From Halichondria panicea (Eukaryota > Porifera > Demospongiae > Suberitida > Halichondriidae): a DNA stretch of 64,000 nt. The notes beneath the pieces were generated by a model that was given only the letters and a program-made list of their open reading frames with translations, had not been told where the DNA came from and made no database searches. Below, piece after piece: positions 1,211 through 63,609 of this stretch; within the stretch, counting starts at the first letter, position 1; each line of letters begins with the position of its first letter. The stretch is from positions 17,278,518 to 17,342,517 of the forward strand of contig NC_087377.1 of the NCBI RefSeq assembly GCF_963675165.1, given 5' to 3'. Made by a program: the position numbers and the translations under genes.

Positions 1211-4101
1211 ATGTCTGACTATCTCACAATAGCAGATCTAGGAGATCTATACATAGCTACGTTTGATGCTCGAATCAAGTGGCGAAACTTCTTGCTGGTT
1301 CTTAAAATATCCTCGGATACCATCGACAGCATTGGTACAAAATGGAGAGATGATCCTGATGACTGCTATCGTGAGGGTTTGAAAGAATGGCTGAAAAGTG
1401 GTGAGAGAAGCTGGGAAGATGTTTTCAAAGCTTTGTCAAGTCCTATCGTAGGCCACGTTCACATAGCCAGGACCATCAAGAAAGATCATCTACAGTCTAC
1501 TGATGCAAGCAATCCTACTGATGTGAAGTCAGAGGGTAAGCACTAGTTTAGCACTGAGGAATCACACATGATGCTTATATAGTTTGTTAGCTACTATAAT
1601 ATTCACCCCCCCCCCAGAAAGCCCGATCCCACCCCCTATACTTCTGTATATACCATTCTCAAACACACACACAATATTCCACAGTTGACCAAAACCGCCA
1701 GAAGATCAACGATGATTTGACTGTTTTCCTAGATGAGCGTCTCGGTAAAGGTGCATTTGGAGCAGTCTTCAAAGGCAGCTACAAGGGCGAGATATGTGCA
1801 GTCAAAGTGCTGCTTCACGATGCTATGGAGATGCAGGCAAGTATTCCAATCGGCAAAAACGAAGAAGCTAGCAATGCAATTGATCGTGAAAGTGATTTTC
1901 TCAAGTCGTTCCAGCACCCAAACGTTGTTCAGTTTTTGTCGACTGCCAAGCACCCTAAATCAGGGAGTACAATCCTCGTTGTTGAGCTGATGGATTGCAA
2001 TCTGAGATCCTATTTCTCCAGCCTTGATGAAGAGTCCCTCACTAGCGAATGTGAAATTAGCCTCTCCAAAGACATGGCTTGTGGTCTGGCCTACATTCAC
2101 AGCAAGCAGATTATCCACCGTGACCTCTGTGGTGATAACGTCTTGCTGAAGCTTACACGACCAGTGCCTGTTGCAAAGATTTCCGACTTTGGCATGTCAC
2201 GGCTATATGATTCCTCCAAGCTTAGTCACACCCTCACAGCCATTGGTCACCGTATGGGGTATCTACCTCTCGAGGCTATTCGATTGGAAGAGGAGAAGTA
2301 CGATAGCAGCCTGGATGTGTTTTCCTATGGGGTGATTGTGACGCAGATTCTTTGCAAGTTGGAGACGATCAAGTCAGCCAAGGATCGATCATTCCATGTT
2401 GCCCAGATCCCTCACACACACAGGTTGAGGAAGCTTATCGACAGTTGTTTGCAAGAAGACATGAGGAGGAGACCATCTGCCAGGGACATCTGTGAGTCAA
2501 TAATAAGTACATTATGTGTTTTACATTTCAGCTAACTGTAACCCTAACGAAAAAATCATATCCGTCTATTAATGTTGGTATCGATTTTAGATACTTACCT
2601 GACAACAAGCTCGGACCCAGTGGAGGCAACAAAGAAGGAGTCAAAGGACACTGAACAAGTCAAGAAGGTGCGTACATGTAGTGTGATAATGAGATTCCCA
2701 CAGCAACAATAGTATTGTACCTTAACATGCATGGATGCTGTCTCATGTGTTAAGCCGTAACTACACATCTGTGTGAGTGTGCCTATAATTATGTACTTCC
2801 TTTAGCGGAAATTGTTGCTTGTTCTCATTCTGTTGTAGAATTTCCGCTAATGATATTTACGTCTTTGTTTGATTTCCACCAACGTTCCCCTGTACAGGCT
2901 CACAGGGAACACATTGGCCACAAAGATGCTGAGCTGGTCAGGAGAGACGCCATCATTCAACAGCAGAGACAGGTGAGACAAAATGCACCATTATATTATT
3001 GCAGAGCTATAGTAGAAGCTTTGATCTCTTATAATCGTACTGTACATTCTATTAGACTGGTGGGCGTGGCCTCTTAAGCTAATTAGAGAAAGTGATTTAG
3101 TGTGCATGCAATTATTGCTACAAGTAACAATCGCTTGTTAGTAGACACTGTCCTAATTACACTCATTCATTATTCAGGGTCCCCCTCCCAGAGAGTTGAG
3201 ACCATTCACTCTGAAATGGAGAAGAGGAAAAGACATGCCAATCAAGATGAGCGCCTCGGTACAGAGTGTTGTTATCGGTGACACGGTGTATGTTGGTGGA
3301 GGGCGTACAGACAATGATCGTGACATGTGTACAGTGATGAAGCTCGAGCAAGATCAATGGACCAAACTACCAGAGTACACTGCCTATTGGTTCGCTATGA
3401 CATCACTCGCTAATCGACTAATGCTGGTGGGAGGAAATGATCCAAGAAACAACAAACCCACGAATCAACTAGCAGTGTTTGAATCAGGGGAATGGCCTCA
3501 CCCATACCCACCAATGAACATTGCTCGCCATTCCTCAACAGCTGTCTCCTTCAGCAACCACATCATTGTAGCTGGTGGGTGTGATGATAAAGTACGTATC
3601 TCCTCTGTGGAGGTGTTGGACGTGGCATCAAGAAGATGGTACATTGCTCAGTCACTACCTAACCCACAATCAGAACTGAAATCGACTCTCGTAGGAAACA
3701 CCCTCTACCTAATGGGAGGGTGGGATCACACTCGGAGTGCAACTAAGACAGTGCACCACGTCGACCTCAATGAACTCATTGCAAAGGCCCTTTCCAACCT
3801 GGACGCACCCACTCCCTGGCAGACCTTACAGGAAGTACCATTCGTGCGATCAGCTCCTCTCAGTATTGGGAGGTCACTATTAGCCGTTGGTGGACGGGAC
3901 AACAGACACAACACAAGTTCATCGATCTTCCTCTACCAGCCTGACACCAGGAGGTGGGTGAAAGTGGGAGACCTGCCTACTGCACAATACTCTTGCACAT
4001 GCTCAGTACTTCCTAGTGGAGAGGTCATTGTAGCCGGAGGACAGACAAAACTATTTGGTAATTATGTTCAAACAGTTGATTTCTTTTGTATAAGCGATTA
4101 A
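1211..4101 (+). CDS. Gene A: death domain - TKL kinase - linker - Kelch propeller receptor
   Basis: Five exons in consistent phase: 1211-1535, 1685-2491, 2591-2667, 2898-2972 and 3178-4101, giving 735 residues. Residues 1-108 hold a death domain (core LYIATFDARIKWRNFLLVLK). The kinase has the glycine loop GKGAFG (129-134), Lys149, HRDLCGDN (253-260) and DFG (276-278), so it looks catalytically complete; the usual APE is degenerate (PLEA). Two short exons form a charged linker with AELVRRDAIIQQQ. Residues 429-735 are six Kelch motifs with GG pairs. No signal peptide or membrane segment is seen. The domain set suggests a cytosolic sensor that signals by death-fold contacts and phosphorylation. 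An acceptor just before the ATG allows a 5-prime UTR exon. A retained second intron would stop translation early. Confidence 0.88.
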
Positions 4102-4222
4102 TTAGTTATTGTAATATGTTGTGCATTGTTAACGATCTTTTTGAAAAAAGTTTTCTAATTAAGTTCGCATATTTCGTTTATTTTTATTTGAACTGTTCAT
4201 TTCTTCTCTATAAGTGCTAATT

Positions 4223-4347
4223 ACCGTATAGCGTGAAATTTTTGAGGCATTTATATTTTGTGGATAGGCCTCTTTTCGTTGCACAATGTTCGCGGAATGA
4301 CTGCTCACCAGAAGCCACGCCTTAAATATTTGCACGGTATAGCAGGT
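4223..4347. repeat. Possible CCGTATAGC-type miniature element
   Basis: CCGTATAGCGTGAAATTT at the left and, inverted, a related but diverged end (TAAATATTTGCACGGTATAG) at the right flank about 125 bp. It resembles other TA-flanked CCGTAT elements here, but the ends are too diverged to set boundaries. The same block recurs in the tandem copy at about 10509-10633. The remaining bases from 4102 to 4477 show only AT-rich 3-prime flank. Confidence 0.35.
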
Positions 4348-4477
4348 AAGAGAAAATTAAGTTGCAACAGAATTTTATCGCATATAATTATAGTTATTAT
4401 GATGACATGAAGTGGTACATACATAATTACATTGCCAGAAAATAGTACAAAAACAGACAAAATAATATTTAACAGTC

Positions 4478-4597
4478 TCATAACAAGTTCAGGTCCTTGG
4501 TTGGGGTCTTGTCCTCGGGTAGGGTGGACGCCTTCTCCCAGAATACAAAGTCTATCTCCTCTTCCGAGACAGACCAGTGAGGGGTGGGGCTCGGGAA
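4478..4597 (-). pseudogene. Acidic terminal exon of unknown minus-strand gene, damaged copy
   Basis: Copy of the exon described at 10764-10882. One extra base within the DSEEE-coding part (near 4566-4580) breaks the frame, and the Leu-Pro-Ser-Asp-Lys part is altered near 4513. It lies tail-to-tail with gene A. Downstream, 4600-4848 holds only decayed intron-like sequence. Confidence 0.55.
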
Positions 4598-5371: not shown

Positions 5372-5576
5372 CCGTATTACTAGAATGTTTTGCAAGCATA
5401 TGCACATTTTGCGAGGGTTGATCAATTTGCAACAATAAAATCGCAAAACCTAAAGTATGACTATAAATACACACGATTATTGCCAGAACGCAATAGTTAG
5501 CACAATCGCAAAGGATCAACTTTGTTGCTGATTGGTAAAGGTTTTTCACCAACAGCAAAATATTCTAGTAATACTG
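5372..5576. mobile_element. CCGTATTACTAG miniature TIR element, TA target site
   Basis: Left end CCGTATTACTAGAATG and right end CTAGTAATACTG form terminal inverted repeats flanked by TA (5370-5371 and 5577-5578). It lies in an intron of the USF-like gene. The same insertion is at 13504-13680 and 27112-27294, so it predates the duplication of the locus. TA duplication suggests a Tc1/mariner-type non-autonomous element. Confidence 0.6.
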
Positions 5577-7221: not shown

Positions 7222-7496
7222 ACAGCTATTGTTTATTCCTGCAGAGAAAGAGGGAGGGTCTCGTTGTAGCTGAGCTAGCTGTTGTCCTGTACTTCTGTAT
7301 CGTGCCTGGTATCAAGCTGTGAAGATACTGTAGCTCTGGATTATTATCAGTAAGTGCAGACAGCACTGTTTTATTTTCTGCATATAGATCTATGGTACAT
7401 GGTTTTGATGATATAATTTGCACACACCAAATATTTATACATAATTACATGTACCTTCATATCATTGTTTATCTTATTCCACTCTCTACAGAGAAG

Positions 7497-10387
7497 ATGT
7501 CTGACTATCTCACAATAGCAGATCTAGGAGATCTATACATAGCTACGTTTGATGCTCGAATCAAGTGGCGAAACTTCTTGCTGGTTCTTAAAATATCCTC
7601 GGATACCATCGACAGCATTGGTACAAAATGGAGAGATGATCCTGATGACTGCTATCGTGAGGGTTTGAAAGAATGGCTGAAAAGTGGTGAGAGAAGCTGG
7701 GAAGATGTTTTCAAAGCTTTGTCAAGTCCTATCGTAGGCCACGTTCACATAGCCAGGACCATCAAGAAAGATCATCTACAGTCTACTGATGCAAGCAATC
7801 CTACTGATGTGAAGTCAGAGGGTAAGCACTAGTTTAGCACTGAGGAATCACACATGATGCTTATATAGTTTGTTAGCTACTATAATATTCACCCCCCCCC
7901 CAGAAAGCCCGATCCCACCCCCTATACTTCTGTATATACCATTCTCAAACACACACACAATATTCCACAGTTGACCAAAACCGCCAGAAGATCAACGATG
8001 ATTTGACTGTTTTCCTAGATGAGCGTCTCGGTAAAGGTGCATTTGGAGCAGTCTTCAAAGGCAGCTACAAGGGCGAGATATGTGCAGTCAAAGTGCTGCT
8101 TCACGATGCTATGGAGATGCAGGCAAGTATTCCAATCGGCAAAAACGAAGAAGCTAGCAATGCAATTGATCGTGAAAGTGATTTTCTCAAGTCGTTCCAG
8201 CACCCAAACGTTGTTCAGTTTTTGTCGACTGCCAAGCACCCTAAATCAGGGAGTACAATCCTCGTTGTTGAGCTGATGGATTGCAATCTGAGATCCTATT
8301 TCTCCAGCCTTGATGAAGAGTCCCTCACTAGCGAATGTGAAATTAGCCTCTCCAAAGACATGGCTTGTGGTCTGGCCTACATTCACAGCAAGCAGATTAT
8401 CCACCGTGACCTCTGTGGTGATAACGTCTTGCTGAAGCTTACACGACCAGTGCCTGTTGCAAAGATTTCCGACTTTGGCATGTCACGGCTATATGATTCC
8501 TCCAAGCTTAGTCACACCCTCACAGCCATTGGTCACCGTATGGGGTATCTACCTCTCGAGGCTATTCGATTGGAAGAGGAGAAGTACGATAGCAGCCTGG
8601 ATGTGTTTTCCTATGGGGTGATTGTGACGCAGATTCTTTGCAAGTTGGAGACGATCAAGTCAGCCAAGGATCGATCATTCCATGTTGCCCAGATCCCTCA
8701 CACACACAGGTTGAGGAAGCTTATCGACAGTTGTTTGCAAGAAGACATGAGGAGGAGACCATCTGCCAGGGACATCTGTGAGTCAATAATAAGTACATTA
8801 TGTGTTTTACATTTCAGCTAACTGTAACCCTAACGAAAAAATCATATCCGTCTATTAATGTTGGTATCGATTTTAGATACTTACCTGACAACAAGCTCGG
8901 ACCCAGTGGAGGCAACAAAGAAGGAGTCAAAGGACACTGAACAAGTCAAGAAGGTGCGTACATGTAGTGTGATAATGAGATTCCCACAGCAACAATAGTA
9001 TTGTACCTTAACATGCATGGATGCTGTCTCATGTGTTAAGCCGTAACTACACATCTGTGTGAGTGTGCCTATAATTATGTACTTCCTTTAGCGGAAATTG
9101 TTGCTTGTTCTCATTCTGTTGTAGAATTTCCGCTAATGATATTTACGTCTTTGTTTGATTTCCACCAACGTTCCCCTGTACAGGCTCACAGGGAACACAT
9201 TGGCCACAAAGATGCTGAGCTGGTCAGGAGAGACGCCATCATTCAACAGCAGAGACAGGTGAGACAAAATGCACCATTATATTATTGCAGAGCTATAGTA
9301 GAAGCTTTGATCTCTTATAATCGTACTGTACATTCTATTAGACTGGTGGGCGTGGCCTCTTAAGCTAATTAGAGAAAGTGATTTAGTGTGCATGCAATTA
9401 TTGCTACAAGTAACAATCGCTTGTTAGTAGACACTGTCCTAATTACACTCATTCATTATTCAGGGTCCCCCTCCCAGAGAGTTGAGACCATTCACTCTGA
9501 AATGGAGAAGAGGAAAAGACATGCCAATCAAGATGAGCGCCTCGGTACAGAGTGTTGTTATCGGTGACACGGTGTATGTTGGTGGAGGGCGTACAGACAA
9601 TGATCGTGACATGTGTACAGTGATGAAGCTCGAGCAAGATCAATGGACCAAACTACCAGAGTACACTGCCTATTGGTTCGCTATGACATCACTCGCTAAT
9701 CGACTAATGCTGGTGGGAGGAAATGATCCAAGAAACAACAAACCCACGAATCAACTAGCAGTGTTTGAATCAGGGGAATGGCCTCACCCATACCCACCAA
9801 TGAACATTGCTCGCCATTCCTCAACAGCTGTCTCCTTCAGCAACCACATCATTGTAGCTGGTGGGTGTGATGATAAAGTACGTATCTCCTCTGTGGAGGT
9901 GTTGGACGTGGCATCAAGAAGATGGTACATTGCTCAGTCACTACCTAACCCACAATCAGAACTGAAATCGACTCTCGTAGGAAACACCCTCTACCTAATG
10001 GGAGGGTGGGATCACACTCGGAGTGCAACTAAGACAGTGCACCACGTCGACCTCAATGAACTCATTGCAAAGGCCCTTTCCAACCTGGACGCACCCACTC
10101 CCTGGCAGACCTTACAGGAAGTACCATTCGTGCGATCAGCTCCTCTCAGTATTGGGAGGTCACTATTAGCCGTTGGTGGACGGGACAACAGACACAACAC
10201 AAGTTCATCGATCTTCCTCTACCAGCCTGACACCAGGAGGTGGGTGAAAGTGGGAGACCTGCCTACTGCACAATACTCTTGCACATGCTCAGTACTTCCT
10301 AGTGGAGAGGTCATTGTAGCCGGAGGACAGACAAAACTATTTGGTAATTATGTTCAAACAGTTGATTTCTTTTGTATAAGCGATTAA
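7497..10387 (+). CDS. Gene B: death domain - TKL kinase - linker - Kelch, identical to gene A
   Basis: Exons 7497-7821, 7971-8777, 8877-8953, 9184-9258 and 9464-10387 give the same 735-residue protein as gene A. I found no amino-acid difference in any exon. The kinase keeps GKGAFG, the Lys of CAVK, HRDLCGDN and DFG. The Kelch exon is identical even at codons that are hypervariable between the other family members. That places this duplication after the last diversification event, or means the copy is an assembly artefact. The downstream flank differs from that of gene A beyond 10799, which argues against a simple collapsed or expanded read error over the whole unit. Confidence 0.85.
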
Positions 10388-11808: not shown

Positions 11809-14317
11809 CTACTGTTGAGAGGATTGGTCCACCGTTTCCATAGACATTGAATCTTGCCCGGGGCTACCAGCACTTGAGTTGCTTGTGAGCACATTCTGAG
11901 CCAGAATCAGAGTGTTGAGCAGACTAGCAGCAGCCGCGGCAGAGAGACCACCACCACCACCACCCCCGCCATTGTTGTTGGCTTGTGACAGCATGGAGGA
12001 TTTCGGTACAGGAGTGGACGGAGAAGTGGTCGTGCTCGCAATGGAGGATAGAGTTTGTACGAGTGAGCTTAAGAGTGGTGTGTTTGGATTAGAGGCTCCA
12101 GTCGGCAGCGATGATTGTAAGAGAGGAGAGAATTGTGACGAAGCTGACAAGTGCATAGGTTGTGCTTGCGAAGGTGTCAGGCTGGAGACAATGCCACCAA
12201 GTTGTTGTAGGGATGAGATAGAACTTGGTGTTTGGTTGTGTGCCAGTGAGGTCAACAGAGGGCTGTTGGTGAGGTTCTGTGCCAGGGATAGTAGTAGTTG
12301 CTGTGCTGCTACATTGTTAGTTTGTTGTGTGGATTGTTGTGGAGGGGAGACAGAAGTGGTCGGTGGTGAGTGGGTCACTACTGTGTTGAGGAGACTCTGG
12401 GCCAGAGGAGAGTTTAGAAGTTGCTGGTTAGGTTGCTTTTGACCAGAGGAAGCAGCTGCATCGATTCCAAACTGGATAATCTGTGCTCGAAGAAATGCGT
12501 TCTCTTTCTCTAGGACTTGGATCTGGTTTTGAAGCATTGCTAAAGCGTTGGTTGATTTCTCTGCGATTTTGGCACTGGCTGTGAGTTGTTCGTTTTGAAA
12601 CACGAGCTCTTTCAAGTAGTCCACTGTCTTGTCTAGTACCGTTCCCTTGCTGTACACATACTGCAGTCAGGGAAACATGATGTGAGGGTGAGACATGTAC
12701 GTGGAGATATCAAAAAAACATGCTTAGTTGCTGTTAAAAAATAGCAATTTTATTTTATGTGTAACTAACTACATGTGTTATATACGATGAACTCTGCTGG
12801 ATTCTATGATACTAGTAACTAACGTAACACTGTGCTCTGCACTAAATGCATGCTTAGCAATAATAGTAATTAAAAAAAACCAAGTTAGTGATATTTCAAT
12901 GGTTTTTCCAATAGTACTTTAGTACACACACTCACAGACACACACACTCACCCCGACAATGGAACCAGTAGTTGCGTCTTTCTTCTGACAAGCAGGCACT
13001 ATCTGAGCCAGTACCTTGATGAGCTCGTTGATCCTGTCCCGACGCCGACGCTCAACTGGGCGTGGGAAGAACAACAACAACAACTGGTAATTATCGTGTT
13101 TAGGGCATGTACAATGAAGCTGAGCCAATTGGCAAAATGAATGAACCTTGACCTCACACACACACACGTACACCTACTGTACAGTATAAAAACCAAGACA
13201 TAATTAATAATTAAAATGGACAATAATGCGTTTACAGCATTAGATAGCTTTCACACAACAAGTAAGTTATTAGTTTTGAAAGTGGCAGATTTGATGTTAA
13301 AGCTTCGTAACTGTACTTTGTGGGAAATGCTTCTATTTGATTATGACCACATACGTACATGTACATCTGTTGTACACTATAACTTTCAGTATTGAATTTG
13401 CATCACCCTCATTGTGTGTAGCCTTCCTCTGAGCTTCCCTGTTGGCGGCCATATCCCCAGACCTGCAAACCAACCACCATAATAACAACACTCCTCACAG
13501 TTACCGTATTACTAGAATGTTTTACGAGCATATGTGAATTTTTAAACAATAAAATTGCAAAACCTAATTTTGGGTAAATACACACGATCCTTGCCAGAAC
13601 GCAACAGTTAGATCGCAAAGCGTTGCCGATTTGGCTGATTCACAAAGGTTTTTTTACTGCAAAATATTCTAGTAATACGGTGTGTAGCAAGAATGATGCT
13701 TTCCCTAACATACTGTCATACATGTTATGCAGAGGTAGGCAATCACATGAACTGTGTACTCACAACTGCATTTGAACGATGGGGTCGGCCGTGTGATAAT
13801 CCATAGTTGATATCCCGCTCATCTTGGGTCCTATAGGTCGACCCATTGCATGCAGTATCTCAGCACTACTGGATGGTGGGATCATCACATACAGAGGACC
13901 TGAACACACACACAACAACATATAAAAAGTGACTATTATTATAAAACAATTTTTCAACACCACTTCCAAGAAACCTCAAACATTAGCAATAATACTCATG
14001 GTTCTGCATTTAATTAGTATGTACAAGCACTTGGATAACTTATCGAAGCCTATAACTTTTGGATTTGGCAAAAAAGCAATCGTCACACTGATAAATTTGG
14101 CCTCCATTACTCACCATTTTGTCCAGACTCTGAACCAGATGAGGTGCTCCTAGTGATGAGGAACTGAGATGAGGGGGTGGTCTGTCCACCTTGCTGCATC
14201 TGGATAAGGGCGTGGCCTATAGCGTTGAGGGTGGAGCCATCCTCAGAGGTCATGTCAGAGGGCAAACCATCATCGCTAGTTAGCGTGTGGACCTCCTGTG
14301 TGAGTGGGCAGGAACAA

Positions 14318-17810: not shown

Positions 17811-19835
17811 GATATATCCTATATTTAAGTATTTTCAACTATAATATTATTTTATAGACTAACGGCTTGGACGAGCGTTTCAATCAGACGTTGCAAAACA
17901 TGCTAGAAGACTGGAGTAGCTACCTGGACACATGTGTTTTCGCATGCCATACCTCTCGTCATAATTCAACAAAGTTTACTCCTTTTGAACTCATGTTCAA
18001 TCGTCAAGCTACTCTTCCCATTGATGTAGAAGTCTCAAGCATTTCTCCTGACCAAGCTGCTCGCGAGTATATATCAGCAGCAAATGCCCAATCTAGATGT
18101 TACACGTACTCGTGAACACAATCATGTACGACTGAGCCAAGCAAAAACCTATATTCTTGCCGCCCAAAAGAAACAGAAGGAATTGTATGATAAGAAACAT
18201 GCACAGCCTAAGAGATATATGGTTGGTCAATTAGTCCTGAAACTAAATCATACTCGCAAAAAGACAAAAGGTGGGAAGCTGAAGAAGAGGTACACTGGCC
18301 CTTACAAAATCATCTCTGTTAAACCACGAGGTGCATATGAGATAAGCGATGGATCAAAGACAGTACTAAAGCCATACAACGATCCACCTACTTGCGATTC
18401 TGGATCAATGGACTCTGCTCACTCTCCTCCTGAGGACTCTGCTCACATAACCTCTGCTCACCTGGAATCCCCTCTTGAAGACTCCGCTCACACAACCTCC
18501 GCTCACCTGGAATGCCAGAGATGGCGACTATGGAAAACTGGGTGGAATGCAGCACATGCAAGGAGTGGTATCATTACGACACCTGTGTGAACGTTCCTGC
18601 CGCTTTTCTCAAAAAATCAGCTGTTTGGCACTGTATGCAGTGCAGTGCTAAACCAGTCTAAGACGTAACTGTTAACCGTCCATAAACTATGAACCATGCA
18701 CCCGTACCGTCTGTATCTATTCCCGGACAGAACTTCGGCATTATAATTATACGTAGTAGTAGTAACATTATTTTATCAAGCTGTAAAACTGTCAATCGTT
18801 AATAGATCTTTCTTTTGAAACACTTGAGTCTTAAGAATGTGGAGGCCTCAAGGTTCACATGCTGCAGCTCTATCTAGTACACCTGGCTGACAAGCTAGGC
18901 TGCTATAGTTCCTGAATATTATGTGACTGCGTCCCCTACATACGCTCCTGGTCCAGAGACGTCTTTTTGTCTAGGCGGACTGATTATTTCAGGGGGGGAC
19001 CAATTTTTTCTGAAAATTTCAGTCCCCGGACCGAAATTTTCATTGAAAAAATTGGTCCCCGGACCAGTTTTTTCAGGACCATTTTTCCAGTGACAGAACA
19101 AAGAAAGAAAGAAGGAAGCAACTAAGAAAAAGGAGAGCCTGCCTTGCTAAGTCGCGTGATCCCCTACTGACGTAGACAAATTTTAACGAGCGTGGGAGAT
19201 AGAAAACCTCAATAACTGTCCTCCCACACAGTACTTGGAGCGCATTTACCAGGAACATAATCTGTACAGTACAGTGCAGTAGAGTCAGCCTTCATGAGAC
19301 CTTTAGTCAGTAGAGGAAGTATGAAAGACTAGAGTAGAGTAGACTATACACTGCTGTAATAATTAATCAAGTGGGTCTGTTCTGAACTCAAGAAAAAAAA
19401 CTGAGCTAAATTTAGATATTTAGTCTCTTTAGTCTTTACTAGGTAAGCCCTCGTCTACAATGTCTCCACGCTTGATTCTGGCTTACTATCTACGATGCTA
19501 ACAGCTTTTATTTAGAGTTTGCAATGCGTAGGCATGCTGTAGCTTTTTGCTCTGTCAGGCTCCGCCCAGCTAGTGATTGCCCACGTTTATTTTCACTCGT
19601 CTACCACTCGTCTACTATACCGTCACGCGACTTAGCAAGGCAGGCTCTCCTTTTTTCTTAGTCTCTTCCTTCTTTCTTTCTTTGTTCCTCCAATTCTTCC
19701 CGTATTTTATCTTATTGAACTGCAGTGACAAAGAACAGAAAAAGGAGAGGCTGCGAAGGAGGCTATCCTTCACCGGCCTTAATAGTGGGAAGTGCGGCCT
19801 GGGATCGAGGCTATATCATGCTGTGAAGATACTGT

Positions 19836-20814: not shown

Positions 20815-23661
20815 ATGTCTGACTATCTGACAATAGTAGATCTAGGAGATCTATACATAGCTACGTTTGATGCTCGAATCAAGTGGAGAAACTTCTTGCT
20901 AGTTCTTAAAATACCCTCGGATACCATCGACAGCATTGGGAAAGATTGGAGCAACAATCCTGATGACTGCTATCGTGAGGGTTTGAAAGAATGGCTGAAA
21001 GGTGGTGAGCGAAGCTGGGAAGATGTTGTCAAAGCTTTGTCAAGTCCCATCGTGCGTGAAGTTCACATAGCCAGGACCATCGAGAAAGATCATCCTAGTG
21101 CAAGCAATCCTAAAAGAATAAAATTACAGGGTAAGTACCAATGGCACATTAATACATAATTATACATGTTAATACGTTATCTTTCAACCTCATGCACACA
21201 ATATTCTTTAGTTGACGAAAATCACCAGTTGATCAACGATGATTTGACTGTTTTCCTAGACGAGCGTCTCGGTAAAGGTGCATTTGGAGCAGTCTTCAAA
21301 GGCAGTTACAGGGGCGAGATATGTGCAGTCAAAGTGCTGCTTCACGATGCTATGGAGATGCAAGCAAGTATTCCAGTCGGCAAAAACGAAGAAGCTAGCG
21401 ATGCAATTGATCGTGAAAGTGATTTTCTCAAGTCGTTCCAGCACCCAAATGTTGTTCAGTTTTTGGCAACTGCCAAGCACCCTAAATCAGGGAGTACAAT
21501 CCTCGTTGTTGAGCTGATGGATTGCAATCTGAGATCCTATTTCTCTGGCCTTGATGAAGAGTCCCTCACTAGCGAATGTGAAATTAGCCTCTCCAAAGAC
21601 ATGGCTTGTGGTCTGGCCTACATTCACACCAAGAATATTATCCATTGTGACCTCTGTGGCGATAACGTCTTACTGATTCAGAAGCTTACACGACCAGTGC
21701 CTGTTGCAAAGATTTCCGACTTTGGTATGTCACGGCTATATGATTCCTCCAAGCTTAGCCACACCCTCACAGCCGTTGGTCACCGTATGGGGTATCTACC
21801 TATTGAGGCTATTCGATTGGAAGAAGAGAAATACGATAGTAGCCTGGATGTGTTTTCCTATGGGGTGATTGTGACACAGATTGTTTGCAAGCTGGAGACC
21901 ATTAAATCAGCCAAGGATCGATCATTCCATGTTGCCCAGATACCTCACACACACAGGTTGAGGAAGCTTATTGACAGTTGTTTGCAAGAAGACATGAGGA
22001 GGAGACCATCTGCCAGGGACATCTGTGAGTCAATGATAATTATGTGTTTTACAATTCCGCTAACCCTAACGAAAAAAATCATATTCGTCTGTATTAATGT
22101 TGGTATCGATTTTCTAGATGCTTACTTGACGAGAGGTTCTGGTTCAGTGGAGGCAACAAAGAGGGAGTCAAAGGACACTCAACCAGTCAAGAAGGTGCGT
22201 ACATGTAGTGTGATAATGAGATTCCCACAGCAACAATAGTATTGTACCTTAACATGCATGGATGCTGTCTCATGTGTTAAGCCGTAACTACACATCCGTT
22301 TGAGTGTGCCTATAATTATGTACTTCCTTTAGCAAAAATTGTTGTTTGTTCTCGTTCTGTTGTAGAATTTCCACTAATGATATTCATGTCTGTGTTTTAA
22401 TTCAAAGATTTCCACCAACGTTCCCCTGTACAGGCACACAGGGAACAGATTAAGCACAAAGATGCTGAGCTGGTCAGGAGAGACGCCATCATTCAACAGC
22501 AGAGACAGGTGAGACAAAGTGCACCATTATATTATTGCAGAGCTATAGTAGAAGCTTTGATCTCTTATAATCGTACTGTACATTCTATTAGACTGGTGGG
22601 CGTGGCCTCTTAAGATAATTAGAGAAAGTGATTTAGTGTGCATGCAATTATTGCTACAAGTAACACTCGCTTGTTAGTAGACACTATCCTAATTACACTC
22701 ATTCATTATTCAGGGTCCCCCTCCCAGAGAGTTGAGACCTCCACTCACTCTGAAATGCAGAAGGGGAAAAGACATGCCAATCAAGATGGGTGGCTCGGTA
22801 CAGAGTGTTGTTATCGGTGACACGGTGTATGTTGGTGGAGGGTTTGCAGACAATGATCATGACAGGTGTACAGTGATGAAGCTCGAGCAAGATCAATGGA
22901 CCAAACTACTAGAGTACACTGCCATGTGGTTCGCTATGACATCACTCGCTAGTCGACTAGTGCTGGTGGGAGGAATTGATTCAAGAAACAAAAAATGCAC
23001 CAATCAGCTTGCAGTGTTTGAATCAAGGGAATGGACTCACCCGTACCCACCAATGAACATTGCTCGTTCTCACTCAACAGCTGTCTCCTTCAACGACCAC
23101 ATCATTGTAGCTGGTGGGAATGATGATAAAGGACGTACCCTCTCCTCTGTGGAGGTGTTGGACGTGGCATCAAGAAGATGGTACATTGCTCAGTCACTAC
23201 CTAACCCACGATCAGTACTGAAATCGACTCTCATAGGAAACACCCTCTACCTAATGGGAGGGTGGGATCACATTGGGGTAACCAAGACAGTGCACAACGT
23301 CGACCTCACTGAACTCGTTGCAAAGGCCCATTCGAACCTGGACACACCCACTCTCTGGCAGACCTTACAGGAAGCACCACTCGAGTTGTCAGCTCCTCTC
23401 AGTATTGGGAGGTCACTATTAGACGTTGGTGGACGGGACGACAGACACAACCCAAGTTCATCGATACACCTCTACCAGCCTGACACCAGGAGGTGGGTGA
23501 AAGTGGGAGACCTGCCTACTGCACGATACTGCTGCACATGCTCAGTACTTCCTAGTGGAGATGTCATTGTAACGGGAGGACTGACAGAACTATTAGAGGC
23601 AGAACTGTTTATTACTGATTATATTCAAACTGTTGATTTCTTCTCTATAAGTGCTAATTAG
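20815..23661 (+). CDS. Gene C: death domain - kinase (HCD) - linker - Kelch receptor
   Basis: Exons 20815-21130, 21212-22024, 22118-22194, 22434-22508 and 22714-23661, all in phase; 742 residues. The death domain matches gene A closely (LYIATFDARIKWRNFLLVLK kept). The kinase has GKGAFG, the CAVK lysine, the catalytic Asp and DFG, but the usual HRD reads HCD, losing the Arg that normally contacts the phosphorylated activation loop. Two residues (Ile-Gln) are inserted after NVLL. The intron at 22025-22117 is open in frame, so retention would extend the linker region rather than end the protein at once. Six Kelch motifs fill the last exon, with a longer, divergent C-terminal loop (TELLEAELFITDY). 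Its promoter is displaced by the transposon nest upstream. Confidence 0.85.
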
Positions 23662-29991: not shown

Positions 29992-30167
29992 ATTGTGGGC
30001 CACAGTGACATAGCCAGGACCATCGAGAAAGATCATCTACAGTCTACTGGTGCAAGCAATCCTACTGATGTGAAGTCAGAGGGTAAGCACTAGTTCAGCA
30101 CAGGAATGCATATCTCATACATGATGCTTAGTTTATTAGCTAGCTACTATAATATTCACCCGGGTCC

Positions 30168-30257
<90 letters not shown>

Positions 30258-47032: not shown

Positions 47033-50000
47033 ATGTTTTCTTTGCGAGATGATGCTGACTTGAGGGAGTTTGTGCTGGAGAATGTGGAGCACTTTGGAGA
47101 GGAGAGAGTTCTAGGAACTGGCTCCTATGGCTCTGTTCAAGAGGTCAGTCACTGCATGCTCTGTTTCTGTGCACTGTCTCTAGTGTATCTGCTAGCTATT
47201 CAAGTGTGACTGCCTCCATGCACAGGTGATGATCAATGGTGAGGTGTATGCAGCCAAGAAGATCCACGAGGTTCTCCTGGAGACGGACGAGCGTGGTGGA
47301 GTGGCCAACCTAGCTGGGAACTACCGCCGAGAGTGTCGACTCATGGCTCGCATCCGTCACCCCAACATCACCCAGTTCATTGGGCTGTGTTTTGTGGCTG
47401 GCTCTCGACTGCCCCTCCTGGTCATGGAGAGGTTGGACTCAAGTCTGGACGATCTCCTGGAGTCCACCCCCAACATACCCCTCTCTGTCACCCAGTACGT
47501 TCTGGTCTGTGTGGCTCGAGGGCTGCTCCACCTGCATTGTGAGTCCGTGGTCCATCGTGACCTCACTGCCAGGAACGTCCTGCTGACGGCATCTCTGAGA
47601 GCCAAGATCACAGACTTTGGTAACTCTCGTATCGTGAATCTAGAGCCTGGTCGACTGGCCAGGACTCTGACGAGGTTTCCTGGGACACTGGTGTACATGC
47701 CGCCCGAGGCCCTCTCTGACAGAGGCCACAGTGTGTATGGACCCAGTCTGGACGTCTTCTCTTTCGGAGTGCTGCATTTGTTTGCACTCACACAAGTATG
47801 TGTAGTTAATGATATTCATAGGTTAGATTCCTGGTGACCATTCATGCAGTGAATTACCTTATAAGTATTGTGGTTGTATGTGTTGGGGAGATCCCCCTTT
47901 AATATTGGTGACCTTCAGCAAATTAATGCATTTTGTATGTATGATTGTGAATATACGTGCACTCGTTTTCTCCATACATACAGACATACATAAAAACAAT
48001 CATGACAGTCAGTATTCACATGTTCTTCCACTCGTGTCATTGGACTAGGTGTTTCCAGGAGATCTCCTTGCCCCCACGTACAGCGACCCCAACAACCCAG
48101 ACCACCTCCTGGCTCGCTCAGAGTTTGAGCGTCGAGGTCCCTACACGGCTCTCCTTGAGAGGAGTCTGGCGGGTGGACGAGAGCACCCTTTGTTTGGTCT
48201 GGTGAGGGAGTGTCTGGCCAACACCCCAGAGAGAAGACCGACCACCGCTGAGCTCCTCTCGTCTCTGGAGGAGGTGGGGAGGGAGATGGACGGAGGACTG
48301 CTTCAGCTGGACATTGCACGAGTGAAGACTGCCAGGACCCTCAGGGCAAAGGAGAAGAGGATAGAGGCTCTACAGGTGAGTCCAGTCCAGTGAGCTAGTG
48401 GGTGCAAGGGTCTGACACTGCATGCTGTACTCTGTTCTCAGAGAGAGGTGGTCCAGAAAGACAGGATACTGGAGAGGAAAGATGAGCAACTTACTGAGAA
48501 AGATGCACTTCTAGTGCAAAAAGACAATCAACTTGAACAGCAAGGATACCAGTTGGAACAGAACGCTGCACTTCTGGTACAAAAAGATGAGCAAGTAGCA
48601 GACAAAGATACTCAGCTGATTAGACAGCAACAGGTCAGCAGAACCACTTTACTTGTTCATTATAAGTCAACAAGCTAGCTTGTTGATAACCTTTTTTCAC
48701 TTTATACAGATATTGAATAGTGTCCGTGCTAATGCTGCCACCAAAGATGGTGTGATTGCTGACAAGGACAGACAACTCAGTGAACAAGAGTCAACGATCA
48801 CTGATCTCATTTCCCAGAGAGAGGCTGCTCTAGTTGAGAGGGCCGCTCTCTTACAGGTATTATAGTAGTCACCAAATGCACACACTCTTATACGCTAGTA
48901 TTATACTACAATAATGATATTTGTTTGCGTACATGTAGCTAAGTGTGTCGATGAGATTCCAACAATAGTAGTATACCTCAACAATTGATGCTATTGTATA
49001 AATCATGTTAAGCTGCTAAATACACATCCGTTTGAGTGTGCCTATAATTATGTACTTCCTTTAGCAGAAATTGTTGTTTGTTCTCGTTCTGTTGTAGAAT
49101 TTCCACTACTGTTATTCACGTCTGTGTTTTAATTCAAAGATTTCCACCAACGTTCCCCTGTACAGGCACACAGGGAACAGATTGGGCACAAAGATGCTGA
49201 GCTGGTCAGGAGAGACGCCATCATTCAACAGCGGAGACAGGTGAGACAAAATGCACCATTATATTATTGCAGAGCTATAGTAGAAGCTTTGATCTCTTAT
49301 AATCGTACTGTACATTCTATTAGACTGGTGGGCGTGGCCTCTTAAGCTAATTAGAGAAAGTGATTTAGTGTGCATGCAATTATTGCTACAAGTAACACTC
49401 GCTTGTTAGTAGACACTATCCTAATTACACTCATTCATTATTCAGGGTCCCCCTCCCAGAGAGTTGAGACCTCCACTCACTCTGAAATGGAGAAGAAGAA
49501 AATACATGCCAATCAAGATGGGTACCTCGGTACAGAGTGTTGTTATCGGTGACACGGTGTATGTTGGTGGAGGTAGTGCAGACAATGATCGTGACAGGTG
49601 TACAGTGATGAAGCTCGAGCAAGATCAATGGACCAAACTACCAGAGTACACTGCCTATAGGTTCGCTATGACATCACTCGCTAATCGACTAGTGCTGGTG
49701 GGAGGAATTGATCCAAAAAACAACAAACGTACCAATCAGCTTGCAGTGTTTGAATCAGGGGAATGGACTCACCCGTACCCATCAATGAACATTGCTCGTT
49801 CTTCCTCAACAGCTGTCTCCTTCAACAACCATATCATTGTAGCTGGTGGGTATGATGATAAAGAACGTACCTCCTCCTCTGTGGAGGTGTTGGACGTGGC
49901 ATCAAGAAGATGGTACATTGCTCAGTCACTACCTAACCCACGATCAGATCTGAAATCGACTCTCATAGGAAACACCTTCTACCTAATGGGAGGGTGGGAT

Positions 50001-50369
50001 CACACTACTATGAAGACAGTGCACCACGTCGACCTCAATGAACTCATTGCAAAAGCCCTTTCCAACCTGGACACACCCACTCTCTGGCAGACCTTACAGG
50101 AAGTACCACTCGTGCGGTCAGCTCCTCTCAGTATTGGGAGGTCACTATTAGCCGTTGGTGGAGCGGACGACAGTGTCAACCCAAGTTCATCGATCCACCT
50201 CTACCAGCCTGACACCAGGAGGTGGGTGAAAGTGGGAGACCTGCCTACTGGACGATACTACTGCACATGCTCAGTACTTCCTAGTGGAGAGGTCATTGTA
50301 GCCGGAGGACAGACATATTCATTTGTTTATATTCAAACTGTTGATTTTTTCTCTATAAATGCTAATTAG
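47033..50369 (+). CDS. Gene D: kinase - coiled coil - Kelch receptor
   Basis: Exons 47033-47143, 47226-47795, 48049-48375, 48442-48633, 48710-48856, 49166-49240 and 49446-50369, all phase 0; 781 residues. The kinase begins with GTGSYGSV (28-35) and has Lys48, HRDLTARN (147-154) and DFG (167-169), so it should be active; the HRDLTARN form resembles tyrosine kinases. Residues 337-474 are a charged coiled coil with repeats such as VQKDEQVADKD, ending with the same AELVRRDAIIQQ linker as genes A-C. Residues 475-781 are the six-bladed Kelch exon. There is no death domain; the start MFSLRDDADLREFV is specific to D and E. An E-box/ETS promoter lies just upstream. Likely a cytosolic oligomeric sensor kinase. 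Confidence 0.87.
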
Positions 50370-54960: not shown

Positions 54961-57900
54961 ATGTTTTCTTTGCGAGATGATGCTGACTTGAGGGAGTTTG
55001 TGCTGGAGAATGTGGAGCACTTTGGAGAGGAGAGAGTTCTAGGAACTGGCTCCTATGGCTCTGTTCAAGAGGTCAGTCACTGCATGCTCTGTTTCTGTGC
55101 ACTGTCTCTAGTGTATCTGCTAGCTATTCAAGTGTGACTGCCTCCATGCACAGGTGATGATCAATGGTGAAGTGTATGCAGCCAAGAAGATCCACGAGGT
55201 TCTCCTGGAGACGGACGAGCGTGGTGGAGTGGCCAACCTAGCTGGGAACTACCACCGAGAGTGTCGACTCATGGCTCGCATCCGTCACCCCAACATCACC
55301 CAGTTTATTGGGCTGTGTTTCGTTACTGGCTCTCGACTGCCCCTCCTGGTCATGGAGAGGCTAGACTCAAGTCTGGACGATCTCCTGGAGTCCACCCCCA
55401 ACATCCCCCTCTCTGTCACCCAGTACATTCTGGTCTGTGTGGCTCGAGGGCTGCTCCACCTGCATCGTGAATCCGTGGTCCATCGTGACCTCACTGCCAG
55501 GAACGTCCTACTGACGGCATCTCTGAGAGCCAAGATCACAGACTTTGGTAACTCTCGTATCGTGAATCTGGAGCCTGGTCGACTGGCCAGGACTCTGACG
55601 AGGTTTCCTGGGACACTGGTGTACATGCCGCCCGAGGCCCTCTCTGACAGAGGCCACAGTGTGTACGGACCCAGTCTAGACGTCTTCTCTTTCGGAGTGC
55701 TGCAGTTGTTTGCACTCACACAAGTATGTGTGTAGTTAATGATATTCATAGGTTAGATTCCTGGTGACCATTCATGCAGTGAATTACCTTATTAGTATTG
55801 TGGTTGTATGTGTTGGGGAGATCCCCCTTTAATATTGTTGACTTTCAGCAAATGCATTTTGTATGTATGATTGTGAATATACGTGCACTCATTTTCTCCA
55901 TACATACAGACATACATAAAAACAATCATGACAGTCAGTATTAACATGTTCCTCCACTTGTGTCATTGGACTAGGTGTTTCCAGGAGATCTCCTTGCCCC
56001 CACGTACAGCGACCCCAACAACCCAGACCACCTCCTGGCTCGCTCAGAGTTTGAGCGTCGAGGTCCCTACACGGCTCTCCTTGAGAGGAGTCTGGCGGGT
56101 GGACGTGAGCACCCTTTGTTTGGTCTGGTGAGGGAGTGTCTGGCCAACACCCCAGAGAGAAGACCAACCACCGCTGAGCTCCTCTCGTCTCTGGAGGAGG
56201 TGGGGAGGGAGATGGACGGAGGACTGCTTCAGCTGGACATTGCACGAGTGAAGACTGCCAGGACCCTCAGGGCAAAGGAGAAGAGGATAGAGGCTCTACA
56301 GGTGAGTCCAGTCCAGTGAGCTAGTGGGTGCAAGGGTCTGACACTGCATGCTGTACTCTGTTCTCAGAGAGAGGTGGTCCAGAAAGACAGGATACTGGAG
56401 AGGAAAGATGAGCAAATAGTACAGAAAGATGAGCAACTTACTGAGAAAGATGCACTTCTAGTGCAAAAAGACAATCAACTTGAACAGCAAGGATACCAGT
56501 TGGAACAGAACGCTGCACTTCTGGTACAAAAAGATGAGCAAGTAGCAGACAAAGATACTCAGCTGGTTAGACAGCAACAGGTCAGCAGAACCACTTTACT
56601 TGTTCATTATAAGTCAACAAGCTAGCTTGTTGATAACCTTTTTTCACTTTATACAGATATTGAATAGTGTCCGTGCTAATGCTGCCACCAAAGATGGTGT
56701 GATTGCTGACAAGGACAGACAACTCAGTGAACAAGAGTCAACGATCACTGATCTCATTTCCCAGAGAGAGGCTGCTCTAGTTGAGAGGGCCGCTCTCTTA
56801 CAGGTATTATAGTAGTCACCAAATGCACACACTCTTATACGCTAGTATTATACTACAATAATGATATTTGTTTGCGTACATGTAGCTAAGTGTGTCGATG
56901 AGATTCCAACAATAGTATTATACCTCAACAATTGATGCTATTGTATAAATCATGTTAAGCCGTAACTACACATCCGTTTGAGTGTGCCTATAATTATGTA
57001 CTTCCTTTAGCAGAAATTGTTGTTTGTTCTCGTTCTGTTGTAGAATTTCCACTACTGATATTCACGTCTGTGTTTTAATTCAAAGATTTCCACCAACGTT
57101 CCCCTGTACAGGCACACAGGGAACAAATTGGGCACAAAGATGCTGAGCTGGTCAGGAGAGACGCCATCATTCAACAGCAGAGACAGGTGAGACAAAATGC
57201 ACCATTATATTATTGCAGAGCTATAGTAGAAGCTTTGATCTCTTATAATCGTACTGTACATTCTATTAGACTGGTGGGCGTGGCCTCTTAAGCTAATTAG
57301 AGAAAGTGATTTAGTGTGCATGCAATTATTGCTACAAGTAACACTCGCTTGTTAGTAGACACTATCCTAATTACACTCATTCATTATTCAGGGTCCCCCT
57401 CCCAGAGAGTTGAGACCTCCACTCACTCTGAAATGGAGAAGAGGAAAAGATATGCCAATCAAGATGGGTACCTCGGTACAGAGTGTTGTTATCGGTGACA
57501 CGGTGTATGTTGGTGGAGGGTTTGCAGACAATGATCGTGACAGGTGTACAGTGATGAAGCTCGAGCAAGATCAATGGACCAAACTAACAGAGTACACTGC
57601 CAAGTACTTCGCTATGACATCACTCGCTAATCGACTAGTGCTGGTGGGAGGACGTGATCCAAGAAACAAGAAACCCACCAATCAGCTTGCAGTGTTTGAA
57701 TCAGGGGAATGGACTCACCCGTACCCACCAATGAACATTGCTCGTGATTCCTCAACAGCTGTCTCCTTCAACAACCACATCATTGTAGCTGGTGGGCATG
57801 ATGATAAAGTACGTATCTCCTCTGTGGCGGTGTTGGACGTGGCATCAAGAAGATGGTACATTGCTCAGTCACTACCTAACCCACGATCAGGACAGAAATC

Positions 57901-58318
57901 AACTCTCATAGGAAACACCCTCTACCTAATGGGAGGGTTCGATCACACTGGGACGGTAACCAAGACAGTGCACCACGTCGACCTCAATGAACTCATTACA
58001 AAGGACCTTTCCAACCTGGACACACCCACTCTCTGGCAGACCTTACAGGAAGTACCACTCATGTGGTCAGCTCCTCTCAGTATTTGGAGGTCACTATTAG
58101 CCGTTGGTGGAGTGGACGACAGATTCAACCCAAGTTCATTGATCCACCTCTACCAGCCTAACACCAGGAGGTGGGTGAAAGTGGGAGACCTGCCTACTGC
58201 ACGATACAACTGCACATGCTCAGTACTTCCTATTGGAGAGGTCATTGTAGCCGGAGGACAGACCAACAGTTATACTATTATTCAAACTGTGGATTTCTTC
58301 TCTATAAGTGCTAATTAG
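54961..58318 (+). CDS. Gene E: kinase - coiled coil - Kelch receptor
   Basis: Exons 54961-55071, 55154-55723, 55975-56301, 56368-56580, 56657-56803, 57112-57186 and 57392-58318; 789 residues. The kinase differs from gene D at only a handful of residues and keeps GTGSYGSV, Lys48, HRDLTARN and DFG. The coiled-coil exon is 21 bp longer than in D because one VQKDEQ-type heptad is repeated. The Kelch exon shares the D framework but differs at nearly every blade's variable sites. Introns are almost identical to those of D, so the two are recent duplicates with selectively diverged Kelch faces. A 1.23-kb transposon lies 21 bp upstream of the ATG, so the ancestral promoter is displaced and expression is uncertain. 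Confidence 0.86.
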
Positions 58319-58694: not shown

Positions 58695-58813
58695 TCATAA
58701 CAAGTTCAGGTCCTTGGTTGGGGTCTTGTCCGAGGGTAGGGTGGACGCCTTCTCCCAGAATCCAAAGTCTATCTCCTCTTCCGAGTCAGATAGTGAGGGG
58801 TGGGGCTCGGGAA
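58695..58813 (-). CDS. Acidic terminal exon (copy after gene E)
   Basis: Open copy of the exon at 10764-10882; reads FGFW as in the 10764 copy. Confidence 0.45.
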
Positions 58814-60666: not shown

Positions 60667-63609
60667 ATGGCCACTCAAGCAACCCCCGATCATTCTCCTG
60701 AGTATTTGTCCATCCAAGAGAACTTTGAAGCATTGGTGTCCACATTCAAAGCTCAACCTGCTGCATACGCTGATAGCCTCTTCTCCAATGGCTACATACC
60801 AGATGAAGTTCTCGAGTACTCTAGACTGAATGGAGTTATGGACTCGGATAAATCTCGAAAGATTCTGGATACTATCATCCATCGAATTAAGCTCAATCCC
60901 AGTGTATTCCACGGCTTTATCGCTGCCATCGCTGGCCCTTCTACTGACGATGTTGTCAAGAAACTACATGATAGTTACGAGCGTCACAAGACTGCGACCA
61001 GCCGTGTTGAACAGCCGCAACTCTCTCCACCCCCACACCAGCAACCTCCACCAGAGGCTCCGACGTCCTTCAGCTTCCCACACCTCGACACCTCTAGCCT
61101 TAATGAGGATGATAGAATTGAATTGGAGGATCGGCTCATACGTGATACAAGGAAAATGATTATTAGGTTCACTGCTTTTACTCTAATTATACAAAGATCA
61201 TTTGAAAACCAACGGATCCCTTTGGATCAGATTAAAGATTCCGTTCTCAGCCTCGAATCTTTCAACGACGGGATTGGAATTAAAGTCCTAGATGCAGAAG
61301 ATAGGCAAGAGATCAAAAATGCCAAAAATTTGGCCCAAGTCTTCATGACTCTACGTGCTTACATCTCTTTTTTCAACTATGAGATAGTGGAGTACCTCAT
61401 CGAGCTGCTGGGATCACCAGACGACCAAACACAACTGCGTGAGTATTGCTCTGCACTTGATCAGTTCTGCCAGCGAAATGTGTTTGAAGTTCCGGCCGAA
61501 GCTTTCTCTTCAAAATCTCGTATCAAAACGGCTAAAGTGTTTGTTATCAAGTGCACTGAGCGAATAGCCACACTGGAGTATGTGAAAAGGCTGACTCCGA
61601 GAATTGCTGAAGCACTTGGTCTACAAAGAGCAGCGCTACAACTCTGTTCAATCAAACAAGGCTGCTTGGAGCTCCACTTTCTCGTCACTGTAGCTGTTGC
61701 CAAGCGTATCTACCCAGTGTCCCCTACTGTACAGGCAGCTCTCAGTGCGATGGGGGTCAAAGTTCTCACCTGTGGAAGTACGGATGAGGTGGAGACATTT
61801 CTGCTGGTACAGTAAGTTCTTGAAAAGGTACTATATACCCGTACTCTGCATAATTATACCATAACTTAATTAACAAGCATGGGCCCTATAATTTAGTTAC
61901 ATGAATATAATATTCGTATTATTATAATAATTACAAGTATGTACATGTCACGTACAGGGATCTGAGCAAACTCAAACTAAAAGGTGTTGAGGAGATGTCT
62001 AAAGACACAAGGACGAGCATGACAACCTTCACTCAAATGAAGGACACTAAAGGTATGAGTGTTTGGCCAACTTGATATCCTATAATCTTTCTTTTAGATA
62101 CAAGAGGCTCGGACACAGTGGAGGCAACAAAGAGGGAGTCAAAGGACACTCAACCAGTCAAGAAGGTGCGTACATGTAGTGTGATAATGAGATTCCCACA
62201 GCAACAATAGTATTGTACCTTAACATGCATGGATGCTGTCTCATGTGTTAAGCCGTAACTACACATCTGTTTGAGTGTGCCTATAATTATGTACTTCATT
62301 TAGCGCAAATTGTTGATTGTTCTCGTTCTGTTGTAGAATTTCCACAATGATATTCACGTCTGTGTTTTAGATTTCCACCAACGTTCCCCTGTACAGGCTC
62401 ACTGTGAGCAGATTGAGCACAAAGATGCTGAGCTGGTCAGGAGAGACGCCATCATTCAACAGCAGAGACAGGTGAGACAAAATGCACCATTATATTATTG
62501 CAGAGCTATAGTAGAAGCTTTGATCTCTTATAATCGTACTGTACATTCTATTAGACTAGTGGGCGTGGCCTCTTAAGCTAATTAGAGAAAGTGATTTAGT
62601 GTGCATGCAATTATTGCTACAAGTAACACTCGCTTGTTAGTAGACACTATCCTAATTACACTCATTCATTATTCAGGGTCCCCCTCCCAGAGAGTTGAGA
62701 CCTCCACTCACTCTGAAATGGAGAAGAGGAAAAGACATGCCAATCAAGATAGGTGACTCGGTACAGAGTGTTGTTATCGGTGACACGGTGTATGTTGGTG
62801 GAGGTAATGCAGGCAATAATCGTGACATGTGTACAGTGATGAAGCTCGAGCAAGATCAATGGACCAAACTACCAGAGTACACTGCCTGGTACTTCGCTAT
62901 GACATCACTCGCTAATCGACTAGTGCTGGTGGGAGGATATGATCCAAGAAACAAAAAACGCACCAATCAACTTGCAGTGTTTGAGTCAGGGGAATGGACT
63001 CACCCGTACCCACCAATGAACATTGCTCGTGATTTCTCAACAGCTGTCTCCTTCAACAACCACATCATTGTAGCTGGTGGGCATGATGATAAAAGACGTA
63101 CCTCCTCTGTGGAGGTGTTGGACGTGGCATCAAGAAGATGGTACATTGCTCAGTCACTACCTAACCCACGATCACATCTGAAATCTACTCTCATAGGAAA
63201 CACCCTCTACCTAATGGGAGGGTGGGATCACACTCGGAGTGCAACCAAGACAGTGTACCACGTCGACCTCACTGAACTCGTTGCAAAGGCCCATTCGAAC
63301 CTGGACACACCCACTCTCTGGCAGACCTTACAGGAAGCACCACTCGAGTTGTCAGCTCCTCTCAGTATTGGGAGGTCACTATTAGCCGTTGGTGGACGAG
63401 ACGACAGAGCCAACCCAAGTTCATCGATCCACCTCTACCAGCCTGACACAAGGAGGTGGGTGAAAGTGGGAGACCTGCCTACTGCACGATACTTCTGCAC
63501 ATGCTCAGTACTTCCTAGTGGAGAGGTCATTGTAGCCGGAGGACAGACAAGTGCATATCTGCTTACTTTTAGTCCAACTGTTGGTTTCTTCACTATAAGT
63601 GCTAATTAG
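60667..63609 (+). CDS. Gene F: CARD-like domain - unnamed domain - linker - Kelch
   Basis: Exons 60667-61811, 61958-62052, 62098-62165, 62397-62471 and 62677-63609 join in phase; 771 residues. Residues about 12-90 are helical and CARD-like (SRKILDTIIHRIKLNPSVFHGFI). A Pro-rich spacer follows (PPPHQQPPPEAPTS). Residues about 190-380 form a single well-conserved-looking domain (FNYEIVEYLIELLGSPDDQ, KVFVIKCTERIATLEYVKRL, CSIKQGCLELHFLVTVAVAK) that I recall only from uncharacterised invertebrate proteins. Then come the same two linker exons as in genes A-C and the Kelch exon (462-771), with a variable C-terminal loop (SAYLLTFS). No kinase is present, so signalling would rest on the CARD-like fold. 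Confidence 0.83.

Follow-up and report, generated by a model that had tools for sequence, protein, structure and literature searches.

In Podospora, the HET-D and HET-E proteins of the NWD family, which are fungal NLRs, carry WD40 propellers in which four codons, located in the d-a loop and the b-c turn, are positively selected, and the repeats of this family of ten genes are near-identical units that undergo concerted evolution (accessible text of PMC1805685). In zebrafish, nearly 400 clustered NLR-B30.2 genes carry their recognition domain in a separate exon, which is positively selected and undergoes conversion between groups whose N-terminal parts differ (accessible text of PMC4852459). 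In Keap1, the D-A and B-C loops of the Kelch propeller form a single face that holds Nrf2 (accessible text of PMC4668279). For sponges, the accessible text of PMC6208332 presents Kelch only as single differentially expressed genes, and the open literature searched yielded no account of a Kelch repertoire in sponges. Here we analyse a stretch of 64,000 nucleotides (C1:17278518-17342517, hereafter the window) from the 131 Mb genome of the sponge Halichondria panicea, which holds six genes (A to F) with a Kelch exon each. On comparison of sequences, this exon probably provides the variable part for recognition in a large, germline-encoded family of predicted cytosolic immune-type receptors.

By using the Kelch exon of gene A as a query, 129 matches were found in the genome at 78-100% identity, 127 of them stop-free across the match, and the Kelch exon of gene F located two further places, giving at least 131 listed copies (match counts are lower bounds). 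Most of these exons cluster at 15.48-16.14 Mb (minus strand) and 16.71-17.39 Mb (plus strand) of C1, and the remainder lie on C1 near 11 Mb and on C6, C28 and C12. We read 106 of the listed exons and one partial copy. Seven exact duplicates were removed from these 107 matches, together with the partial copy (L034b), one exon with a start that was out of frame or missing (L096) and one with an in-frame TGA (L095), which left 97 distinct open copies; their alignment of 350 columns was trimmed to the 307 codons of gene A. At L034:4870-5508, a second, partial Kelch copy lies immediately downstream of an open one.

The Kelch exon has six repeats, a glycine pair (GG) ending strand B and a propeller fold, as expected of a six-bladed propeller. 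Across the 97 copies the framework is nearly frozen (median entropy 0.23 bit per codon), and the ten most variable codons (87, 43, 244, 292, 135, 26, 166, 118, 272 and 187, in gene A numbering) reach 2.7-3.6 bits, with codons 45, 50, 70, 94, 139, 182, 188, 224, 240 and 295 also among the most variable. When the blades were aligned on GG, entropy peaked at offsets -15 (mean 2.2 bits) and -14 (1.6 bits) and, counted after the first G, amounted to 2.8 bits at +2, 0.6 at +3 and 1.1-1.9 at +4 to +9; all other offsets were below 0.7 bit and mostly below 0.4. These variable loops are the D-A and B-C loops, across all six blades. Aligned in the same way, the six blades of gene A are unlike one another at most positions, and any one blade hardly changes from gene to gene. 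The B-C loop of blade 6 (window 4042-4071 in gene A) varies among copies both in sequence and in length; because its alignment needs gaps, there is less certainty in the sites called at codons 289-298.

An initial annotation, based on the genes of this window, had named ten codons as hypervariable, six of them 14 residues (15 in blade 6) before GG and four right after it, set in a framework nearly identical between copies. All 50 residues that it listed (ten codons in five genes) are correct, and the 97 copies bear out the conserved framework. In the 92 copies that it had not seen, the ten codons rank 1, 2, 5, 6, 7, 10, 13, 17, 31 and 40 of 307 by entropy, with a mean of 2.66 bits against 0.52 overall, a value that no set of ten codons drawn at random matched in 100,000 draws. 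Its register holds less exactly: a named codon is variable but can have a higher neighbour (70 exceeds 71, and 118 exceeds 119), and the variation placed right after GG extends over +2 to +9 of the B-C loop and is least at +3. Blade 4, omitted from the list of positions after GG, is variable there too (codons 182 and 186-188).

Selection was assessed by a FUBAR-like codon scan written for this analysis, which was run with one tree and then, because the Kelch copies recombine, with one tree per blade. The one-tree scan (twice the log-likelihood difference, 2dL, of 914) returned 67 sites at P>0.9, some of them in the framework with low rates; since this model calls such low-rate sites, we kept only the 40 sites that passed P>0.95 in both per-blade models, one with free synonymous rates (2dL 1078) and one with a fixed rate, which alone gave 47. 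Thirty-nine of the 40 fall in the B-C loop or in the eight residues preceding strand A (together 117 of the 307 residues), the remaining one being codon 307, and no site was called in strands A and B, the A-B loops or the N-terminus. Twenty null simulations yielded 2dL values of 0.3-14.7, with no sites in 19 and one site in 1. Kinase exons of the same genes, which are introduced below, served as controls after removal of L043 (kinase 1) and L019 (kinase 2) for an internal stop, and of exact duplicates and matches that were short. In 13 genes, no site was called in the kinase 2 exon, as against 25 (free rates) or 39 (fixed rates) in their Kelch exons. The ratio of nonsynonymous to synonymous rates (dN/dS), which the initial annotation had proposed as a check, bears it out across the 97 copies: dN is well above dS at most of the named codons, of which nine (26, 43, 87, 119, 135, 166, 224, 240 and 272) pass in the two per-blade models alike and one (71) in the fixed-rate but not the free one. 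Nor is the variation spread evenly over the propeller, which would have spoken against that annotation.

A tree-free comparison with the adjoining intron was made in 38 of 46 genes, leaving out gene B, the exact Kelch duplicates L022, L033 and L040, and L016, L036, L039 and L041, in which the intron is partly or wholly replaced. Between these genes the difference is 3.9% at framework fourfold sites, 3.5% at framework codon positions 1 and 2 and 1.8% in the intron; at positions 1 and 2 of 32 variable codons, which were picked by entropy, it is 46%. Propeller loops tolerate change, which would favour relaxed constraint, that is, loops drifting freely with no selection for change. Drift, however, predicts differences of 2-5% (the fourfold and intron level) at these positions rather than 46%, and dN exceeds dS at the variable codons; measured against the intron and the fourfold sites, relaxed constraint is rejected, and its chance of being correct is negligible.

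Targeted hypermutation of chosen codons, by a process like that of a diversity-generating retroelement or a deaminase, was first suggested by fixed third bases: many variable codons keep one third base (NNC in 96 of 97 copies at codon 26 and in 95 of 95 at codon 45, NNA in 91 of 93 at codon 139). Silent third-base differences of 26% at 15 of the 32 variable codons also speak for it; they are 2% at the other 17, in which third bases are most fixed (a split made by eye after the third bases had been inspected). Diversity-generating retroelements vary template adenines and have a reverse transcriptase nearby; because the kept third bases differ by codon and include A, C, G and T, that adenine rule does not apply here. 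Residue-altering third-base differences, moreover, amount to 16% in the 32 variable codons and 1.8% in the framework, about a ninefold rise, against 8% and 5% for silent differences in fourfold codons, a 1.5-fold rise. This split between silent and non-silent changes counts against targeted mutagenesis as the main cause, and we consider it very improbable. The nonsynonymous excess is present at all codon positions and thus tracks the meaning of a change and not its position; as far as sequences can tell, this points to selection rather than targeted mutation as the main driver of loop variation.

The selected loops were mapped from the secondary structure of an AlphaFold2 model of the gene A propeller, and the Keap1 register was taken from published numbering, in which the tyrosines 375 and 473 of the YxxGG motifs place GG at 378 and 476 (accessible text of PMC10146909). 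In that numbering, the Nrf2 contacts S363, R380, N382 and R483 of Keap1 lie at GG offsets -15, +2, +4 and +7. These offsets are among the most variable in the sponge Kelch exons. Two further Keap1 contacts, R415 and S508, presumably lie at -14 and -15. The parallel with Keap1 in the initial annotation is thereby supported, in that its offsets match Nrf2 contact positions and 39 of the 40 selected sites lie in the loops of that face. The Kelch domain of Keap1 works as a substrate adaptor (accessible text of PMC4668279), which would be a precedent for propellers that recruit varied host proteins to kinases with no role in immunity. We regard a substrate-adaptor family, whose diversity would mirror that of its partners, as quite improbable here. 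Many near-identical copies that differ chiefly on the binding face, with dN far above dS, typify an arms race and not stable host partners.

Three unrelated heads precede the Kelch exon: a Death-like domain with a kinase (kinase 1), a second kinase (kinase 2) and a protein with a CARD fold. The genes of the window, all on the forward strand, are as follows.

1211..1535, + strand: gene A exon 1, Death-like domain (Pfam Death E=0.042, under the curated cut-off; ATG start, GT donor)
1685..2491, + strand: gene A exon 2, protein kinase (PF00069 E=4.7e-39 in the open frame; AG and GT ends)
2591..2667, + strand: gene A exon 3, short linker that gene F has as well (open frame, canonical splice sites)
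2898..2972, + strand: gene A exon 4, linker common to all three head types (sequence comparison, splice sites)
2973..3177, + strand: gene A intron adjoining the Kelch exon (1.8% difference, also across genes with different heads)
3178..4101, + strand: gene A Kelch exon, six-bladed propeller (Pfam Kelch; AlphaFold2 model with a predicted local distance difference test score, pLDDT, of 86.5)
7323..10387, + strand: gene B, second copy of gene A with a matching set of frames (identical Kelch exon)
21160..22239, + strand: gene C kinase frame, type 1 head, with the Death-like part upstream
22714..23661, + strand: gene C Kelch exon
47196..47837, + strand: gene D kinase frame, second type (PF00069 E=3.8e-31)
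49446..50369, + strand: gene D Kelch exon
55124..55735, + strand: gene E kinase frame, second type
57392..58318, + strand: gene E Kelch exon
60667..61811, + strand: gene F exon 1, head, with a CARD-like fold at residues 9-105
61958..62471, + strand: gene F exons 2-4 (61958-62052, 62098-62165 and 62397-62471), in-frame link between head and Kelch
62677..63609, + strand: gene F Kelch exon

The gene A kinase has HRDL...N and DFG motifs (read by eye), and the gene D kinase is 33% identical to kinase 1 within the match. Gene F has canonical splice sites and an open frame of 771 residues, in which the head is in frame with Kelch. Residues 9-105 of this head resemble the CARD of APAF-1 in fold, a death-fold effector of the kind found in NLR proteins; the head had no Pfam match (E up to 10) and no PDB sequence match (E up to 1). 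The Pfam scan of heads covered genes A, D and F, and neither BTB nor NACHT/NB-ARC was matched in gene A (Death-like frame and kinase frame), gene D (kinase frame) or gene F (head). Gene A has no strongly hydrophobic stretch, and with heads of the Death-like, CARD-fold and kinase types this fits the cytosolic signalling proteins proposed in the initial annotation. One protein (P0021) has its Death-like part joined straight to Kelch, without a kinase, a possible fourth architecture; at L009, none of the three head kinds occurs within the DNA read.

Genes A (1037-4101) and B (7323-10387) form a tandem duplication, 6286 bp apart, in which the Kelch DNA is identical and no other listed frame shows more than one residue of difference. 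A kinase frame at 30153-31121 resembles that of gene A and is perhaps a kinase without a propeller, as the stretch from 23661 to 49425 yielded no Kelch exon. A frame at 18030-18590 has a weak match to a Tf2-1-like SH3 domain (E 9e-5, under the Pfam cut-off) and is perhaps a retroelement remnant. On the minus strand, positions 11809-12666 hold a frame of 285 residues, leucine-rich and then glutamine-/serine-rich, which has no Pfam match and which we take to resemble a USF-type helix-loop-helix zipper factor.

Between genes with different heads, the shared stretch starts about 500-575 bp before the Kelch exon (blastn, in gene subsets of 48, 40 and 30 pairs), so that the shared cassette consists of linker exon, intron and Kelch exon. 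Within and between head types (37 genes), the difference was respectively 2.2% and 2.0% for the linker, 1.87% and 1.82% for the cassette intron, 3.65% and 4.16% for framework fourfold sites and 46% and 48% for positions 1 and 2 of the variable codons; fourfold sites of the heads themselves differ by 12.7% (kinase 1) and 4.4% (kinase 2). The 68 framework variants show low linkage whatever the distance between them, and variable sites are weakly associated (mean z 2.1 within and 1.1 between blades). On a tree of the variable sites, head labels change 10 times as compared with 16.3 when shuffled (as low in 1 of 2000; 40 genes); head type and Kelch sequence are thus not fully independent, and exchange is therefore incomplete. 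The cassettes look homogenised and exchanged across heads, within limits. Their near-equal similarity within and between head types, together with the low linkage, would fit concerted evolution of recognition units between genes, for which grouping by species instead of by orthologue is the defining sign. The intron preceding the Kelch exon (window 2973-3177) differs less than silent sites of the exon (1.8% vs 3.9%), and it may be an anchor for exchange or have a function of its own.

Homologous proteins numbered 555, and figures were obtained for the 120 listed, of which 60 match a genome copy at ≥95% of the variable sites, 1 at 80-95% and 59 below 80%. Among the 36 proteins from contigs under 10 kb, 32 are at most 60% identical at the variable sites to any of the 97 copies; all the same framework is retained, since the majority residue of the 36 is the same at every framework site tested, and their per-site residue spectra agree with those of the genome copies (mean r 0.91, lowest 0.59). 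This comparison, against 97 copies with 25 genome copies unread, suggests that different individuals or populations may carry different Kelch repertoires. The same molecular system could serve allorecognition or fusion compatibility, with self or kin markers as ligands and not pathogens. The 32 proteins with no close variable-site match favour that possibility, as does the closest analogue, HET-D/HET-E, which serves allorecognition and has its selected sites in these very loops of a propeller (accessible text of PMC1805685). A repertoire of more than 100 loci, rather than one or few polymorphic loci, and heads typical of innate immune signalling make it unlikely. To our knowledge, moreover, no sponge cell fusion exposes cytosolic markers.

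Taking these results together, we infer the following mechanism for a recognition family. The D-A and B-C loops of the six blades would form one ligand-binding face, whose residues diversifying selection would keep altering, while gene conversion or unequal crossing over would keep the framework, linker exon and intron alike. Exchange would spread the cassette among Death-like-kinase, second-kinase and CARD heads, and ligand binding would switch the head on, so that a target that is non-self or altered self would elicit signalling through a kinase or a death fold. More tentatively, and with somewhat less than even confidence, the whole may be a combinatorial innate system of an early-branching animal, in which a pool of Kelch cassettes is continually reshuffled among CARD, Death-like-kinase and other kinase heads, so that individuals inherit different repertoires of faces with several outputs. 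It would be comparable to antibody variable regions joined to one constant part or another, though encoded wholly in the germline.

Several results weigh against a recognition family so built. The kinase 1 exon of 19 genes has 1 selected site with free rates, at a 2dL of 28.5 that exceeds the Kelch null range, and 42 sites once the synonymous rate is held at 1; in 16 of these 19 genes the Kelch exons have 41 (free) and 40 (fixed), and the fixed-rate model was never used alone because the mean synonymous rate of kinase 1, 1.6, breaks its assumption. Per-site synonymous rates are poorly known, with 52-53% of the prior weight on beta>alpha, and the silent third-base result is mixed, as given above. 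Mutations recurring within a star-like family could likewise account for the low linkage, and on the framework tree head labels change 12 times versus 16.3 when shuffled (19 of 2000 as low; 40 genes). The Death match of gene A is under the Pfam cut-off, and the reading covered 106 of at least 131 listed Kelch copies.

If recognition by the Kelch face is nevertheless its function, an animal without adaptive immunity would have evolved a propeller repertoire by the logic of fungi and fish, using corresponding propeller loops yet another fold, and seemingly with no NACHT engine of the usual sort. Candidate residues for binding can now be named codon by codon, which makes ligands, structures and variation between individuals directly testable and touches the long-standing question of how sponges distinguish symbionts, pathogens and other sponges.

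Among described systems, HET-D/HET-E, as presented in the source cited above, is alike in having a propeller as recognition domain, selected codons on one face and near-identical units, and in the sponge, too, selection is confined to the equivalent loops apart from a single codon. The unit in HET-D/HET-E is a short repeat inside one gene, whereas in the sponge it is the whole six-blade Kelch exon, and tandem near-identical repeats within a gene are absent from the sponge Kelch genes. HET-D/HET-E also have a central NACHT; the sponge system belongs to an animal, has no NACHT match in the parts scanned (genes A, D and F), comprises more than 100 genes and has kinase, Death-like and CARD heads. 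The zebrafish NLR-B30.2 genes, again as described in their source, share a separate recognition exon that is under positive selection and common to groups with different N-terminal parts; theirs has a B30.2 fold on a NACHT core, and that of the sponge is a Kelch propeller in which the loops of a single face hold the selected codons. In Keap1 and other KLHL proteins, BTB/BACK comes before Kelch, unlike the sponge heads scanned (genes A, D and F), which have no BTB match, and we know of no hypervariable family among Keap1-type genes. The expanded NLR and SRCR families of sponges are likewise large innate receptor families, with other recognition domains. By analogy, then, the sponge system appears to follow the logic of HET-D/HET-E and NLR-B30.2, but with another fold, in another phylum and with other heads.
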